The translations under genes were made by a program, and so were the position numbers. A DNA stretch of 64,000 bases. It comes from a virus. Shown in pieces: positions 46,138-62,486 of the stretch. Numbering within the stretch: position 1 is the stretch's first letter; the number at the start of each line of letters is the position of its first letter. The notes under the pieces are model-generated. The model was not told where the DNA came from. It made no database searches and saw nothing but the letters and a program-made list of their open reading frames with translations. Location of the stretch: positions 140,686-204,685 of IMG/VR virus record IMGVR_UViG_3300018962_000001; one strand, written 5' to 3'.

Positions 46138-46601
46138 ATCTCAGTATGAACCTGCTGGCCGCGCTAAACACCTATTTCGCCTTCCAGACCATGCCACACC
46201 AGCACGGCACGGTCCAGGTGGTTGGATGGCGCGATGACCCCACGCGCCAGCGGGTCTGTGCCGCGCTGACGGCTACTGCCGAGGAGGATGGGTGGCGGAT
46301 CGCCATCCGTTCGGACGGTATTGCCCTGTTTCGTGATGACGAGTCCCATCTCATCACCGGCCCGATCGAGATTCCACGCCACGCGCCCGGACGGATTCCT
46401 ACCCGGCTGGCGGAGTATCTCTGGACCTATACGTGTCTGTGTTTGGGTGATCCGCGCATGACCGGGCCAATTGCCCTGTTTGCCCTGTCGGTGGATGCCG
46501 ACGCCCACCGGGAGCAGCTTGCCAGCACGTATCACCAACGCGAGGTGGTGCTCCTTGGCTTCGACGACTGGTGTGATCGTTTTGAAGGAGGATCGGTCTA
46601 A
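46134..46601 (+). CDS. Tandem paralog family member 2 (longer)
   Basis: 155 residues; ATGA overlap. NMNLLAALNTYFAFQTMP and GWRDDPTRQRVCAALTATAEED align with its neighbours, followed by SHLITGPIEIPRH. It then adds a 60-residue extension (LWTYTCLCLGDPRMTGPIALF), possibly a second domain. Confidence 0.65.
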   Translation: MNLSMNLLAALNTYFAFQTMPHQHGTVQVVGWRDDPTRQRVCAALTATAEEDGWRIAIRSDGIALFRDDESHLITGPIEIPRHAPGRIPTRLAEYLWTYTCLCLGDPRMTGPIALFALSVDADAHREQLASTYHQREVVLLGFDDWCDRFEGGSV

Positions 46602-57659: not shown

Positions 57660-57755
57660 CGTGGTCCTCGCGTTCAGGTCGATGCGGGAGGAATTGCTCC
57701 CCCCCGCGCTCAGATCAAACATCCAGCAAGTCAAAAATTCGTATAGTTAGGATAG

Positions 57756-57787
57756 GGGGGGATTCGGGCGCGGTACCCGAATCCCCC
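57756..57787. terminator. GGGGGATTCGGG / CCCGAATCCCCC hairpin
   Basis: Arms GGGGGATTCGGG and CCCGAATCCCCC flank a short loop, 9 bp downstream of the stop of the gene at 57,796. Each gene of this right-hand module has such a strong hairpin on its 3' side. Confidence 0.55.
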
Positions 57788-57795
57788 GATCGATT

Positions 57796-58170
57796 CTAGC
57801 GCGGGCGGAAAAAATCGCCGCGCGCGATCGCGCTATCGATCGGCGCGGCGATCGGATCGTTTAATTCGCCGCGCCCCGATCGGGTATTTTCGTAGGCGGC
57901 GGCGGCGGCGGGTAGCGGGCGGCGATTCGCGCGCGCCCAAATTTTATCCGCGCGATCGATACCGCGATTCGCGGCGGCGTACGCGGCGGAATCGGATAGT
58001 AGATCCGGGCGGGCGTAAAATTCGGCGGCGGCTAGTACGATCGGATCGGGGTAAAAATCGCGGCGATCGATAATTAAGCCGTTAAGCGCGTAGCGTAGAT
58101 AAATTTGGGCGGCGGCGGATTCGATTCGGGCTAGGATCGTAGCGGTAGCGGTAGCGGTAGCGGTAGTCAT
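57796..58170 (-). CDS. CA/TG-poor cassette gene 1
   Basis: 124 residues, starting with a run of Thr-Ala pairs. Ala, Arg, Asp, Tyr and Ile are abundant; Val, His and Cys are absent or nearly so, and Met is only the start. Leu is mostly encoded by CTA or TTA. Only about three CA or TG steps occur in the coding region. A strong promoter (58,222-58,250), a shared leader and a 3' hairpin make it a single-gene unit. It is not a shadow frame, because the matching regulatory pattern recurs for other genes. Function unknown; AAAEFYARPDLL recalls the DALRFYAD segment of the neighbouring paralogs. Confidence 0.55.
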   Translation of the reverse strand: MTTATATATATILARIESAAAQIYLRYALNGLIIDRRDFYPDPIVLAAAEFYARPDLLSDSAAYAAANRGIDRADKIWARANRRPLPAAAAAYENTRSGRGELNDPIAAPIDSAIARGDFFRPR

Positions 58171-58221
58171 TTTGGTATCCCCTAGTAGCGGCGCGGCGGG
58201 CGCGATTCATTTGATAGGTAT

Positions 58222-58250
58222 AGTATAGCGTATATCGGCGCGCTAGTCAA
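58222..58250 (-). promoter_or_regulatory. Promoter of CA/TG-poor gene 1
   Basis: -35 TTGACT (58,245-58,250), spacer AGCGCGCCGATATACGC (17 bp), -10 TATACT (58,222-58,227). Followed by the leader ATCAAATGAATCG and an AGGGGATAC near the start codon. Confidence 0.8.
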
Positions 58251-58340
58251 TCAAAATCTAGTAAAAATAGCGGCGGATTTTGTATAGATATATTAACTAT
58301 ATCTAGGCGGATCGGGCGCGCTAGGCGGCGCGCTAGGGGC

Positions 58341-58366
58341 GATAGGGGCGCTATCCGCGCCCCTAT
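58341..58366. terminator. ATAGGGGCG / CGCCCCTAT hairpin
   Basis: Nine-bp arms around CTATCCG, about 24 bp past the stop of the gene at 58,390. No U-tract. Confidence 0.45.
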
Positions 58367-58389
58367 ACGCGATCGGGGGATACGCGGCG

Positions 58390-59043
58390 CTACGCGGCGC
58401 GGGTAGCCTTAAGGCCCGTCTTAACCGTACCGTGCCCCTTAATTTCTACCGCGATCGGCGTATCGCGTACTACGCGGGCGCGTACCGTATAGCGGATACG
58501 GGTAGCGGTACGATCCGCTACGATCGCCTTAATTTCGCCGTAGATCGCGCCGCCGGTAGCGGCTATATCGCGGATAAAATCGGCGCGGGCGCTATCGATC
58601 GTACTATCGATCGGGCGGCTATAGCGGATAAATTCGGATCGGGCGCATTTCGGTACCGCTACCGGATAGACGCGGGCGCGGCGGGCGCTAGGCGCTACGG
58701 GCGCGGGCGCTACGGGCGCGGGCGCGGTATAGATCCGGGCGCGGCGCGGGCTATCGTAGGCATGCGATAGTAGGCGGGCGATTCGGGCGCGGCGGGCGGA
58801 TTCGTAGCGGGCGGCGGCGCGGCGGGCATTAATTTCTAGCGATTCGCGGGCGTACGTACTAGCCGGATAGGTACCCGCCGAAAATTCGCGCCCGGTACGC
58901 GGATCGGTTAAGTAGGCCGTATTTTCAAATTGGCCGGGATTCGGGCGGCGGCGATCGTAGCGAATCGCGTAGGTAGTACCGTTAATTTCGATCGTAGCGG
59001 CGGCGGCGGATTTTTTGGCGGCGGTAGTAGCGGTAGTAGTCAT
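58390..59043 (-). CDS. CA/TG-poor cassette gene 2
   Basis: 217 residues, Arg/Ala/Tyr/Ile-rich. ATIEINGTTYAIRYDRRRPN, NTAYLTDPRTGREFSAGTYP, a PAPVAPAPVAP linker, and a final VEIKGHGTVKTGLKATRAA. Only about 8 CA/TG steps in 650 bp. Its promoter at 59,102-59,130 and leader repeat those of gene 1, and its upstream region (ATTTTGTATAG, TTTACCAAAT) is a near copy. Two folded domains are likely: a beta-rich one and a basic C-terminal one. Function unknown. Confidence 0.6.
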   Translation of the reverse strand: MTTTATTAAKKSAAAATIEINGTTYAIRYDRRRPNPGQFENTAYLTDPRTGREFSAGTYPASTYARESLEINARRAAARYESARRARIARLLSHAYDSPRRARIYTAPAPVAPAPVAPSARRARVYPVAVPKCARSEFIRYSRPIDSTIDSARADFIRDIAATGGAIYGEIKAIVADRTATRIRYTVRARVVRDTPIAVEIKGHGTVKTGLKATRAA

Positions 59044-59101
59044 TTCCGTATCCCCTAGATACTAGGCCGCTATCGGTAGCGGCGATTCATTTGATAGCGG
59101 T

Positions 59102-59130
59102 AGTATAGCGCGTATCGGCGCGTACGTCAA
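59102..59130 (-). promoter_or_regulatory. Promoter of CA/TG-poor gene 2
   Basis: -35 TTGACG (59,125-59,130), 17-bp spacer TACGCGCCGATACGCGC, -10 TATACT (59,102-59,107). Upstream repeats of TTTACCAAATCTATAC resemble an UP element. Confidence 0.8.
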
Positions 59131-59299
59131 GTATAGATTTGGTAAAAATAGGCCGGATTTTGTATAGATTTGGTAAAAATTTTATACGGGTATGGTTGTA
59201 AAAAATCGGTAAAAAAGTACCGGAATCAACCGCCCGGATCGACATAAGGAGGCGCGCATGTGCGCGTGTGTGAGCGTGCGTGTGCGCGCCGATTCGCAC

Positions 59300-59480
59300 G
59301 TACGGCCAACCAGCCATTCTCAACGAAGCGCCTGCGCGTGCGCGTTGATACCCGCGTGCGGCCAACCAGCGATTCCCAACAAACCGCCTGCACGCATCCA
59401 TGAATACCCGCGTACGGCCAACCATGCAGTTCCGAGAATGTCCCTGCGCCCCTGTGTTGATGCCCGCGTGCGGCCAACCA
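59300..59480 (-). repeat. Four-copy tandem repeat with a 56-bp period
   Basis: The core GT(A/G)CGGCCAACCA starts at 59,300, 59,356, 59,412 and 59,468, each exactly 56 bp apart, followed by degenerate flanks (AGCATTCCCAAC-type). The period is not a multiple of three, so it is not a coding repeat. Related cores recur at 62,432, 62,474, 62,898 and 62,932. Iterons, partition sites or other protein-binding arrays are possible. Confidence 0.7.
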
Positions 59481-59487
59481 TCTATGG

Positions 59488-59775
59488 TCAGGGGAGCGGA
59501 TCAGGATCATGCCAGCCATGCGGGCTATCCGCATAACAACCACGAAACACCAACGAGTCCCCAAGCACCGACGCTTCCGCATCGGTTCGGCGCGTCTTGA
59601 TACGCCAACCCAACCGCCGACAAACGGCGACCATCTGCTCGAACTGGTCGGGCGCGGCCTGGATCGCCAGGCCGCCGGGCACGATGTCGGAGGAAATGCC
59701 AACCTCGGCCAAGGCCGCTTGCGCAGCACACGCCTGCTGATAGGTGCGCGGTTGAATGGTGTACTCTTTGGTCAT
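59488..59775 (-). CDS. Unknown protein
   Basis: 95 residues from ATG 59,775 with GAGGAG upstream. Amphipathic helices (QQACAAQAALAEVGISSDIV) and FEQMVAVCRRLGWRIKTRRT. Its 3' end runs into the 56-bp repeat array. Function unknown. Confidence 0.55.
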   Translation of the reverse strand: MTKEYTIQPRTYQQACAAQAALAEVGISSDIVPGGLAIQAAPDQFEQMVAVCRRLGWRIKTRRTDAEASVLGDSLVFRGCYADSPHGWHDPDPLP

Positions 59776-59805
59776 GGTCTAACTCCTCGGCAGAATCCCT
59801 GCCCG

Positions 59806-59840
59806 ATGCGAGGGCCGGTCGTTGTGATCGGCCCTCGGTA
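59806..59840. terminator. Hairpin after gene at 59,847
   Basis: Arms GAGGGCCG and CGGCCCTC lie just beyond the stop of the gene at 59,847, like the hairpins after other genes in this module. Confidence 0.45.
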
Positions 59841-59846
59841 CCCGAC

Positions 59847-60089
59847 CTACCAATCGTAGTCAGCAGCAATCGACACGAAGCTGGACGAGCCGACCGCGAA
59901 TGCGTGATCCTCAACACGGGAATCGGCATCGGTCGCAGCCTCGATCATGGTTGACAGCACCCAGCACTCGGCAGGATCGGTCGTTTCCGCGTGGGCGGCG
60001 GCGGCGGCGTCGAGCACTTCTTGCCGGGCGGCAGGACTCAACTTGGCGGCAAGGGCAAGCAAGGCAACATATTCGGTTGATGACCTCAT
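59847..60089 (-). CDS. Unknown protein
   Basis: 80 residues from ATG 60,089; GAAAGGA site in the leader. YVALLALAAKLSPAARQEVL and ECWVLSTMIEAATDADSR. Its promoter is at 60,139-60,167. Acidic; function unknown. Confidence 0.55.
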   Translation of the reverse strand: MRSSTEYVALLALAAKLSPAARQEVLDAAAAAHAETTDPAECWVLSTMIEAATDADSRVEDHAFAVGSSSFVSIAADYDW

Positions 60090-60138
60090 GGCGGGTTCCT
60101 TTCGTGCTCGGCGCTGGGCCGGTATCTATCGTGCTTGG

Positions 60139-60167
60139 AGCTTACCGCTGGTCGGCCAGTATGTCAA
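60139..60167 (-). promoter_or_regulatory. Promoter of gene at 59,847
   Basis: CCCC then TTGACA (60,162-60,167), 17-bp spacer, TAAGCT (60,139-60,144). Promoter family member. Confidence 0.7.
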
Positions 60168-60196
60168 GGGGTTACAAGAACGACCTGCCGAACGCT

Positions 60197-60454
60197 TTAC
60201 GAATCCGCCAGGGCGCGCGGAGCGAGGTGGTTGGCGACATCGCGCGATTGCTCGGCCAGCTGCCGCAGCGTGTCGGCCAGCGGGCCAGCCGCAGGGGTGA
60301 TTCGGGCCAGGGCCGCAGCCTCGGCGGCCAACCGCAGGACATCTGCCGCAATGCAGGTTGCGAGGGTGGCGGCAACCTGCGCCTCGTGCTCGGCATTGGT
60401 ATGCTGCGCGCCGATCCGGCAAAACGCGCATGGTTGGGGGAGATTTGGTGACAC
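60197..60454 (-). CDS. Unknown helical protein
   Basis: 85 residues, GTG at 60,454, with GAAAGGA upstream. A PQPCAFCRIGAQH stretch gives one Cys pair, then long Ala-rich helices (EAAALARITPAAGPLADTL). Probably in the same transcript as the 37-residue acidic gene. Confidence 0.5.
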   Translation of the reverse strand: MSPNLPQPCAFCRIGAQHTNAEHEAQVAATLATCIAADVLRLAAEAAALARITPAAGPLADTLRQLAEQSRDVANHLAPRALADS

Positions 60455-60493
60455 GACCTGATTCCTTTCGTATGCAAGCATGGTTGGAGAGGG

Positions 60494-60607
60494 CTATGCC
60501 CCCTCCTCCTCGTCCTCGTCCCGGTTGTCCTGGTCGGCGGCGGCATCTTCGCGTTCGAGTCGCGCTACGGCTTCCTCGGCTTCTCGGTCGGCCCAATCGC
60601 GGTACAT
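60494..60607 (-). CDS. 37-residue highly acidic protein
   Basis: From ATG 60,607, preceded by GAAAGGAACCCGCC, reading MYRDWADREAEEAVARLERE, then DAAADQDNRDEDEEEGA, then stop. The end is almost all acidic (net charge strongly negative), like a small DNA mimic or inhibitor. Its own promoter is at 60,645-60,673. Too short to be recognised as a family. Confidence 0.6.
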   Translation of the reverse strand: MYRDWADREAEEAVARLEREDAAADQDNRDEDEEEGA

Positions 60608-60644
60608 GGCGGGTTCCTTTCGCTCCATCGTCGTATCTGAGCAC

Positions 60645-60673
60645 ATCATACCGGAGGTCGATCGGAACGTCAA
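60645..60673 (-). promoter_or_regulatory. Promoter of the acidic small gene
   Basis: CCCC then TTGACG (60,668-60,673), 17-bp spacer, TATGAT (60,645-60,650). Confidence 0.7.
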
Positions 60674-60677
60674 GGGG

Positions 60678-61001
60678 TTATGATACGACCTTTGATCGAC
60701 CCGATTCCCTGGGGGTCCGGGCGAGCCGCGCCCTGGCGTCGGCGATTAAGGCGACCAGATCGGCAGGCTTGCGCCGTGGGGGGAGCGACTGCTCTAGGGC
60801 AACCACGGCGGCCTCAACCCCTTGGGCGGCGCGTTCTCGCGCCTCGCAGGTTTGCCGGGAGGGCATCCATACCTGGCCGAATCCATAGGCGGGCATAGGC
60901 CGCTTCGACCGATCAACGGCTCGGTTGGCCTCCTGCAAGGTTTGGAGCGCTGCGCGAAGACAGTCGGCGCGATACGCACGGGTGGTTGCTCGATGGCCCA
61001 T
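60678..61001 (-). CDS. Basic helical protein, unknown
   Basis: 107 residues from ATG 61,001; GAAAGGAGG upstream. Helical (DCLRAALQTLQEANRAVDRS) and YGFGQVWMPSRQTCEARER. Function unknown. Its own promoter was not found, so it may be read from an upstream unit. Confidence 0.55.
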   Translation of the reverse strand: MGHRATTRAYRADCLRAALQTLQEANRAVDRSKRPMPAYGFGQVWMPSRQTCEARERAAQGVEAAVVALEQSLPPRRKPADLVALIADARARLARTPRESGRSKVVS

Positions 61002-61028
61002 GACGGCCTCCTTTCGGTTGCAGGTTGC

Positions 61029-61054
61029 CGCCGGGCGGATTAATCCGCCCGGCG
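61029..61054. terminator. Perfect GC-rich palindrome
   Basis: A palindrome of the type CGCCGGGCGGATT / AATCCGCCCGGCG lies 11 bp past the stop of the gene at 61,065. Confidence 0.5.
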
Positions 61055-61064
61055 ATTCGCGGAT

Positions 61065-61520
61065 CTAGCGGGTTGATTTTTCCCCGTAGCGCGGGTCGAG
61101 TCGCGGTAGCGCGTTAAGCGCGGCGGCTAGGGCCGAATCGTAGATCGCGGCTACGGCGGCGGCGTACCGATCGAGTCGATCCGAATCGTAGGCCGCGCCC
61201 GATTCGAGGTCGGCGGCGATCGCGGCGGCGGATTCCGATTCGTAGCCGCCGCCTAGCGCGGCAAAAATCGATTCGGCGGCGGCGGCGGCGGTCGATAGGA
61301 TATACAAATCGCTATAGGATTCGAGTCCGGCGGCGGCTAGGATTTCGCCAAATCCTACGGCGCTATCCCCCCCGATATACCCGGCGCGATTCCCCGCTAC
61401 GATTCCGGCGGAAATCCCGGCGGCGGCGGCGGCGATTAATTCGACCGAATCTAGGGGATAGACGGCTAGGGCGGCGGCGGCGGCGGCGGCGGATTTTGGG
61501 GCGATTTGGATCGGGTTCAT
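61065..61520 (-). CDS. CA/TG-poor cassette gene 3
   Basis: 151 residues, Ala-rich, with Ala runs, GYIGGDSAVGFGEILAAAGL and ESESAAAIAADLESGAAYDSD. Only about six CA or TG steps in 450 bp. Promoter at 61,573-61,601. Unknown function; many Ala runs come from GCC repeats. Likely expressed but of doubtful structure. Confidence 0.5.
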   Translation of the reverse strand: MNPIQIAPKSAAAAAAALAVYPLDSVELIAAAAAGISAGIVAGNRAGYIGGDSAVGFGEILAAAGLESYSDLYILSTAAAAAESIFAALGGGYESESAAAIAADLESGAAYDSDRLDRYAAAVAAIYDSALAAALNALPRLDPRYGEKSTR

Positions 61521-61572
61521 TAATTTTTCCCTACTAGCCCGTATCGCTACGGGCGATTAATTTGATAGCCGT

Positions 61573-61601
61573 AGTATAGCGCAAAAATACGCGCTAGTCA
61601 A
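61573..61601 (-). promoter_or_regulatory. Promoter of CA/TG-poor gene 3
   Basis: -35 TTGACT (61,596-61,601), 17-bp spacer AGCGCGTATTTTTGCGC, -10 TATACT (61,573-61,578), leader ATCAAATTAATCG. Confidence 0.8.
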
Positions 61602-61679
61602 GGGAGGTTGACGGGGAAAAAGAAGGTCGATCCGACGAATCGCACCGGGCCGGGTTGGATCGGCGCTGCGCAGCGGCGG

Positions 61680-61716
61680 TAGGTTGGCGGGCGGGTTGGC
61701 ATTACCCAACCCGCCC
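61680..61716. terminator. GGCGGGCGGGTTGG / CCAACCCGCCC hairpin
   Basis: GC-rich hairpin just beyond the stop of the gene at 61,723, with a CATTACC-type tip. Confidence 0.45.
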
Positions 61717-61722
61717 GGCGAT

Positions 61723-62163
61723 CTAGGGATTAAGCAGGTTGGTTACGATTCCCCCCGGATCGGTACGGTAAAATGCGATCAACTTCCCCCCGGAAATGCA
61801 ACCTTCGAAGGTCGGGCCGAGGGCCGCGTCTAGGTACGTATCCAAATCGGGAATCGCGGCGGCGGATTCGGCGCGCGGGCAACCTTCGGCTACCCATTTA
61901 ACGTAGCCCGCCGCGATTCCAACATGGGCGGCGGCGATTCCGCGCGCGATCCGGGGCGGATCAACCGGAATCCCGTAGGCGGCAAATCCGGCGGCGGCGA
62001 TCGGCGGCGCGGCGATCGGCGGCGCGGGCGCGGCGGGCGGCGCGGGCGGATAGGGATACGTTAAGCGATCGTAGGTATAGGCGGCGGCGGATTCGCGGAT
62101 CATTTCAAATTCGGCGGCGTAGGATTCGGGCGAATTGTTGGAATCGTAGACTCGGATAGGCAT
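61723..62163 (-). CDS. CA/TG-poor cassette gene 4
   Basis: 146 residues. The N-terminus (IRVYDSNNSPESYAAEFEMI) is followed by a Pro/Ala repeat (PAPPAAPAPPIAAPPIAAA), then GIAAAHVGIAAGYVKWVAEG, CPRAESAA and a folded C-terminus with GGKLIAFYRTDPGG. CA/TG depletion is clear in the 5' part and weaker near the 3' end. Promoter at 62,218-62,246. Function unknown. Confidence 0.55.
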   Translation of the reverse strand: MPIRVYDSNNSPESYAAEFEMIRESAAAYTYDRLTYPYPPAPPAAPAPPIAAPPIAAAGFAAYGIPVDPPRIARGIAAAHVGIAAGYVKWVAEGCPRAESAAAIPDLDTYLDAALGPTFEGCISGGKLIAFYRTDPGGIVTNLLNP

Positions 62164-62217
62164 TTTCGGACTCCCGTAGCGGTAGCGGCGCGTAGGCCGG
62201 ATTTATTTGATACCGCT

Positions 62218-62246
62218 ATATTACCGCGTATCGGCGCGCTAGTCAA
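62218..62246 (-). promoter_or_regulatory. Promoter of CA/TG-poor gene 4
   Basis: -35 TTGACT (62,241-62,246), 17-bp spacer AGCGCGCCGATACGCGG, -10 TAATAT (62,218-62,223). Confidence 0.75.
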
Positions 62247-62431
62247 GGGTAACCTTCGCCCGATCGCGCAGGTCGATCCGCCGATCGCACCCGGCGTACT
62301 GCTGAAGGTCGGGCTTGACAACCAGGCCCGTGGGCAGCGATGCTGCTGGCAGGGGCCACGCCAGGGGCCAGCAGCACGCTGAGCTGCGTCCACCTTCTGA
62401 CCTGCACCCACCTGGACAGGTGGACTTGTAC

Positions 62432-62486
62432 GTACGGCCAACCATTCAAACCCAGCGATGCGCAGCTTGGCGCGTACGGCCAACCA
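62432..62486 (-). repeat. Two dispersed copies of the GTACGGCCAACCA core
   Basis: Cores at 62,432 and 62,474, 42 bp apart, with CAAACCCAG(C/G)GATG flanks. Related to the 56-bp repeat at 59,300-59,480. Confidence 0.6.

Follow-up and report, generated by a model that had tools for sequence, protein, structure and literature searches.

The closest described counterparts of the locus analyzed here are phage morons, fungal repeat-induced point mutation (RIP), the avoidance of restriction sites by phages, and the Mom modification of phage Mu. Morons described so far usually stand out by their overall G+C, and Mom has the target context 5'-SASNY-3' (S, G or C). Dinucleotide composition is normally smooth along a genome. 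In the window studied here, a 64,000-bp stretch that forms the last 64 kb (bases 140,686–204,685) of the 204,685-bp IMG/VR virus record IMGVR_UViG_3300018962_000001, we found three islands, carrying four small genes, that are nearly devoid of the dinucleotides CA and TG and have the same G+C (about 0.61) as their surroundings. We put the chances at about even that these genes are moron-like cassettes whose source was a lineage subject to pressure, on both strands, against CA/TG and against isolated A:T pairs. All the evidence on the islands comes from this single metagenomic record and one locus; coordinates are those of the window unless the record is named.

An initial annotation, made from the sequence alone, had counted by hand about 17 CA or TG steps in the 1,260 bp at 57,781–59,040. 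The count is correct (9 CA and 8 TG; relative abundance rho = 0.11), as are the contrasts drawn around it: TA is in excess in the same interval (rho = 2.5, at a GC content of 0.611), CA/TG is also low at 61,020–61,600 (rho = 0.18) and less so at 61,725–62,265 (0.33), the genes between the islands (59,488–61,001) are normal (1.04), and the DNA just after the first island is TG-rich (1.46 at 59,240–59,487). In 250-bp sliding windows over the whole record, where rho(CA/TG) has a mean of 1.07 and a standard deviation of 0.17, the islands stand out, and the sole other low place is at record positions 46,251–46,550 (rho = 0.56). The depletion is present on both strands and in all three codon phases, and reaches leaders and, as had been noted, intergenic DNA. 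To place its limits we used a two-state segmentation (Table 1). In unit 4 the composition switches at the -35 box; in unit 3 it does so both there and at the hairpin. The weaker deficit of gene 4 had been read as an intermediate stage of change, but it is better seen as the sum of a depleted 5' part and a normal 3' end, the latter being the last 110 bp or so of the open reading frame (ORF). If the four proteins were recoded with the phage's own codons they would have 33–60 CA/TG per gene, compared to the 3, 9, 7 and 19 found (z = -5 to -10), so neither amino acid content nor codon bias accounts for the deficit, even though amino acid content is also shifted. Pure codon bias is thus ruled out.

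The rule extends beyond the CA/TG loss originally described, to isolated A:T pairs. Trinucleotides with a single A or T between G/C bases (S-W-S) are depleted about 12-fold (29 found, 341 expected), and A-only or T-only runs between G/C bases hardly occur. Relative to background, and counting both strands, CAC (0.02), CAG (0.03), GAG/CTC (0.10) and GAC/GTC (0.27) are depleted. The losses are not confined to SAS contexts, as they would be under Mom-type avoidance, because CAA (0.57), CAT (0.26), and AAC and AAG (0.40) are low as well. TAG (6.0) and TAC (3.9) are enriched, STAS is up, and CTAG is about 12–15 times as frequent. Among dinucleotides, CA+TG falls from 333 expected to 56 found, while CpG rises from 278 to 438 (+160) and TpA from 60 to 218 (+158); AC+GT goes from 266 to 180, GC from 263 to 322, and AT from 141 to 211. 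The totals of the purine/pyrimidine classes are almost conserved while CA/TG collapses, which means that A/T and G/C have been re-sorted like with like at constant G+C, as if by two-way transitions. Outside this record, a 250-bp stretch of an AT-rich contig (L284, 3940–4190) consists almost entirely of TAG, TA and TAA words with hardly any CA/TG, and looks like low-complexity DNA.

The island genes are organized as four transcription units with a common layout: TTGAC-N18-TAWWMT, five bases, the box TATCAAATNAATC, a short leader, the ORF, and an adjacent hairpin. Each unit has, directly upstream of its gene, a sequence that matches the consensus of a strong sigma-70-type promoter, and the hairpins adjoining the stop codons are putative terminators. 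The TATCAAATNAATC box occurs exactly four times in 204 kb, always within the islands.

Table 1. Features of the CA/TG-depleted islands (window coordinates).
Feature	Position	Strand	Description	Basis
Island A	57734..59241		two transcription units, genes 1 and 2; CA/TG rho ~0.1-0.2	segmentation, 587 bits
Island B	61029..61598		one transcription unit, gene 3; edges at -35 box and hairpin	segmentation, 184 bits
Island C	61832..62243		promoter-proximal part of gene 4 unit	segmentation, 108 bits
Gene 1	57796..58170	-	124 aa	ORF
Gene 1 promoter	58222..58250	-	TTGACT-N17-TATACT	sequence match
Gene 1 leader box	58204..58216	-	TATCAAATGAATC	
Hairpin after gene 1 stop	57755..57787	-	terminator-like	by inspection
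Gene 2	58390..59043	-	217 aa	ORF
Gene 2 promoter	59102..59130	-	TTGACG-N17-TATACT	sequence match
Gene 2 leader box	59084..59096	-	TATCAAATGAATC	
Hairpin after gene 2 stop	58342..58366	-	itself in island composition	by inspection
Gene 3	61065..61520	-	151 aa, Ala-rich	ORF
Gene 3 promoter	61573..61601	-	TTGACT-N17-TATACT	sequence match
Gene 3 leader box	61555..61567	-	TATCAAATTAATC	
Hairpin after gene 3 stop	61030..61053	-	terminator-like	by inspection
Gene 4	61723..62163	-	146 aa; depleted toward the 5' end, normal toward the 3' end	ORF
Gene 4 promoter	62218..62246	-	TTGACT-N17-TAATAT	sequence match
Gene 4 leader box	62200..62212	-	TATCAAATAAATC	
Hairpin after gene 4 stop	61690..61715	-	terminator-like	by inspection

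The four frames are open, as first described, with Gln, His, Trp, Cys and Met nearly absent from their products (for example, Q is 0.5% of residues compared to 4.5% in the comparison set, W 0.3% compared to 2.3%, and H 0.5% compared to 2.4%). ATA makes up only 1 of 38 in-frame ATA and ATC codons, compared to 34% of such triplets overall (P = 2.6 x 10−6), from which it is clear that coding constraint on the ORFs is still active. With a promoter, leader and hairpin in each unit in addition to this avoidance of in-frame ATA, all four ORFs qualify as real genes. The length without stops in gene 2 lies near the 99th percentile for simulated island DNA.

One could suppose that the islands grew by duplication or slippage of a few CA-free words such as GCG, TA and GAT, their composition being a founder effect. 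Such growth would agree with the GGC/TAGCGG tracts and with the small surviving vocabulary of A/T runs (GTAG, GATC, GTAC, CTAG, GATTC and GATAG). We regard it as quite improbable, however, because one rule runs through three separate islands with non-homologous proteins, because codon choice in the island genes is position-specific, and because the N-terminal domain of the gene 2 protein (residues 14–96) is confidently predicted to fold from its single sequence (pLDDT, the predicted local distance difference test score, mostly 70–85, about 80).

Homology searches of the island proteins were negative. None matches a family in Pfam or PHROGs, none has a homolog in a phage collection or a paralog within the record, and genes 1, 2 and 4 have no homologs in IMG/VR (gene 3 was not searched there). 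For gene 2, no homolog was found in a plasmid collection, and neither a sequence search of PDB nor a Foldseek search with the predicted model gave anything significant; in 399 + 287 sampled genomes from two phyla, which may not be the host's, there were two weak compositional matches (E ~7 x 10−4). When island 1 was compared by BLASTN to phage and plasmid sequences, only chance matches came up, and there was no match in Rfam. The absence of relatives from the collections searched, in a single metagenomic record, is what would be expected of an artefact of assembly or sequencing, or of contamination by engineered DNA. But the promoters, leaders and ORFs lie in a phage context, the edges fall at biological landmarks, and we know of no chemistry that gives a two-strand pattern with open frames, so an artefact seems to us very improbable.

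This class of promoter and leader is confined, within the phage, to the four island genes. For the native accessory genes the promoter context is another one, ACCCCTTGAC, with leaders GAAAGGAACCCGCCATG or GAAAGGAACCCGCC; at record positions 477, 818, 200852 and 201358, for example, CCCCTTGAC is followed by a TA...T -10 box at normal spacing, and leaders such as GAAAGGAACCCGCCATG recur among these promoters. By searching IMG/VR with the leader box we found an unrelated phage (G001; 141 kb, 40% GC) in which the island class of promoter and leader is present on at least seven genes whose CA/TG is normal; its closest leader is CAGGGGATACGAAATG, compared to CTAGGGGATACGGAAATG in gene 2. IMG/VR searches with the promoter itself gave two chance matches to an 18-mer and none to a stricter pattern, and in genome contigs the leader box did not lead to any comparable GC-rich, CA-depleted unit. 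The core TTGAC-N18-TAWWMT-N5-TATCAAAT is common in viral contigs. A widespread phage promoter/leader class, TTGACA-N17-TATAAT-N5-TATCAAATgAAAGAGAGG, is seen in many viral contigs (e.g., L029, L038, L214, L268 and L294), and at least 119 IMG/VR stretches match the core.

Import is favored by the combination of a composition that is unique in 204 kb with a promoter, leader and hairpin common to four units. Units 3 and 4 have normal DNA ahead of TTGAC, related between the two units and including a native-like CCC, and island DNA after it; this arrangement resembles a recombination junction. A change of composition starting at the -35 box would fit cassettes being exchanged there, at a promoter sequence that is conserved, and the normal composition that unit 4 regains within its ORF fits a recombinant gene. 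We propose that the cassettes may have been acquired by lateral transfer, probably via recombination at the conserved -35 sequence. The donor lineage, of a phage or a plasmid, would long have been under a symmetric, context-dependent pressure that removed CA/TG and isolated A:T pairs from its DNA. Its genes would have adapted through substitution of other residues for Gln, His, Trp and Cys and through codon shifts from GAG to GAA, CTG to CTA, GTG to GTA, and GAC to GAT. The pressure could have been either mutational or a selection against the contexts of an activity that modifies, silences or cleaves DNA, and the evidence for import is silent on which of these shaped the donor DNA. A foreign origin was one of the alternatives offered in the initial annotation, and it fits better than the RIP-like change offered beside it, given distinctive expression signals common to all four units and a switch at -35 in two of them.

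Several points weigh against import. No donor, homolog or second example was found in the IMG/VR, phage, plasmid or sampled genome collections (with gene 3 not searched in IMG/VR), so that "foreign" is a reading of signals and composition only, and we know of no replicon with such a signature genome-wide. Units 1 and 2 have island-like DNA upstream of -35, so the junction is not everywhere at -35, and the normal 3' end of gene 4 requires an extra recombination event. We rank import first, followed by selection in situ and then by mutation in situ.

Mutation in situ would be an activity of the host or phage that turns CpA to TpA on both strands of these units, in the manner of RIP. RIP indices do call the islands affected (TpA/ApT is 1.17 in island 1 and 0.42 in the background; (CpA+TpG)/(ApC+GpT) is 0.19 and 1.25, respectively), the gains of TAG, TAC, TAT and TAA roughly equal the losses of CAG, CAC, CAT and CAA, and units 3 and 4 begin at the promoter, with unit 4 fading with distance as in a transcription-coupled process. 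But when we simulated such a mutator by turning 85% of CpA/TpG in the phage's own DNA to TpA, the result had a GC content of 0.51 compared to the 0.60 observed, 107 CpG per kb compared to 169, 24 GAG per kb compared to 2.7, and 55 S-W-S per kb compared to 10. Starting the simulation from phage DNA of 67% GC still gave wrong values for GAG, GAC and S-W-S. ATA codons, an expected product of CpA mutation, stay rare (1 of 51 Ile codons), and the ORFs are intact. The islands lack the duplicated target of RIP, since the units share only promoter regions of about 66–95 nt, and among the top-listed family matches of 95 scanned phage proteins there is no deaminase. Because the simulation fails, G+C is constant, and CpG has risen as much as TpA, RIP-like decay is not the whole cause, and we consider mutation in situ unlikely. 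A simulated balanced avoidance of CA/TG alone came near the observed GC, CpG, TpA and CTAG but was off on GAG, GAC and S-W-S; adding a second rule, against A that does not follow T and precedes G or C, moved these three in the right direction, although the grid of settings we tried did not fit every value. A balanced rule, the loss of CA/TG plus VAS/STB, describes the data better than one-way deamination, as a description and not as a mechanism.

Under selection in situ, strongly promoted genes would avoid CA/TG and SAS contexts recognized by a modification, a nuclease or a silencer that blocks transcription, and we judge this rather unlikely; it would serve to let the host RNA polymerase read the island genes at once after infection. 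In unit 3 the depletion tracks the transcription unit from -35 to hairpin, and these promoter-bounded edges fit selection against recognized contexts as well as transcription-linked mutation in situ. Both strands are affected, the residual CA/TG cluster mostly in ATG start codons, the TTGAC -35 box and the TATCAAAT box, and the phage has three proteins of N6/N4 DNA methyltransferase families (L006:16145–18382 and two further ORFs). However, the islands are separated by genes of normal composition that have promoters of their own, which argues against avoidance of cleavage, and CAA and CAT are depleted too. Methyltransferases among the listed family matches of phage proteins are of N6/N4 type only, with no RID/Dim-2-like C5 enzyme of the kind expected for RIP among those listed, and no Mom family appears among the top-listed matches. 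The avoidance of a single restriction or modification motif, suggested initially, does not hold up, because several unrelated trinucleotides are missing and the DNA directly between the islands is normal. We give somewhat less than even odds to the possibility that an undescribed DNA-level process of phage or host purges chosen transcription units, on both strands, of CA/TG and isolated A:T pairs while keeping G+C and genes intact, for example because genes that have to be read first avoid a degenerate target of modification or silencing.

The record encodes a terminase, portal, major capsid protein and DnaB helicase, and is that of a tailed phage. In its closest relative found by capsid protein (G002, 61% identity), portal and terminase are adjacent, about 420 bp apart; here they are about 16 kb apart when measured across the record ends, from which we infer that the record is circularly permuted and that an accessory block of small genes lies between them. 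The islands sit inside this block, and the comparison with G002, where the flanking genes are neighbors, shows insertion for the block as a whole and not for each cassette. None of the relatives found by capsid protein has CA/TG-depleted islands. Clustered beside the islands in the accessory block is a repeated element with the core CGTACGGCCAACCA and variants, which forms an array with 56-bp spacing at 59303, 59359, 59415 and 59471 and has more copies at 62435, 62477, 62901 and 62935 and at record positions 923 and 1967. Elsewhere, at 99.6–129.1 kb of the record (G000, L009–L011), there are 39 transfer RNA genes, a nearly full set with some isoacceptors in multiple copies.

Whole genes that make almost no use of one of the ten unique dinucleotide steps, with abrupt edges and unchanged G+C, point to strong pressure on both strands, and such a pressure is missing from models of phage genome evolution based on amelioration, restriction avoidance or codon bias. 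Our literature searches found no described case of a local CA/TG-free rule of this kind, and the sharp local rule against CA/TG and isolated A:T pairs is without precedent in them. It raises the question of which enzyme recognizes CA/TG and SAS, and why only the island genes escape. If the pressure is one of defense or modification, the rule itself reads out the specificity of the system and could help to track it down.

Compared to known systems, the islands resemble restriction-site avoidance in phages in that certain short words are locally missing from both strands, but the missing set is degenerate (CA/TG plus VAS/STB) and limited to islands separated by normal DNA, and many unrelated trinucleotides are missing while GATC and CTAG are not. 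The context of Mu Mom appears similar in that SAS is the most depleted class, an analogy to which the additional loss of CAA and CAT does not conform. With fungal RIP the islands have in common the loss of CpA/TpG, the gain of TpA on both strands and the positive indices; they differ in showing no loss of GC, a gain of CpG, a loss of S-W-S, intact ORFs and no duplicated target that we found, and in lying in a bacterial virus. Like phage morons, they have their own sigma-70-type promoters, as judged by sequence, terminator-like hairpins, a deviant composition, and a site between genes that are adjacent in relatives; unlike morons, they keep the same G+C and are set apart by a dinucleotide and trinucleotide rule.

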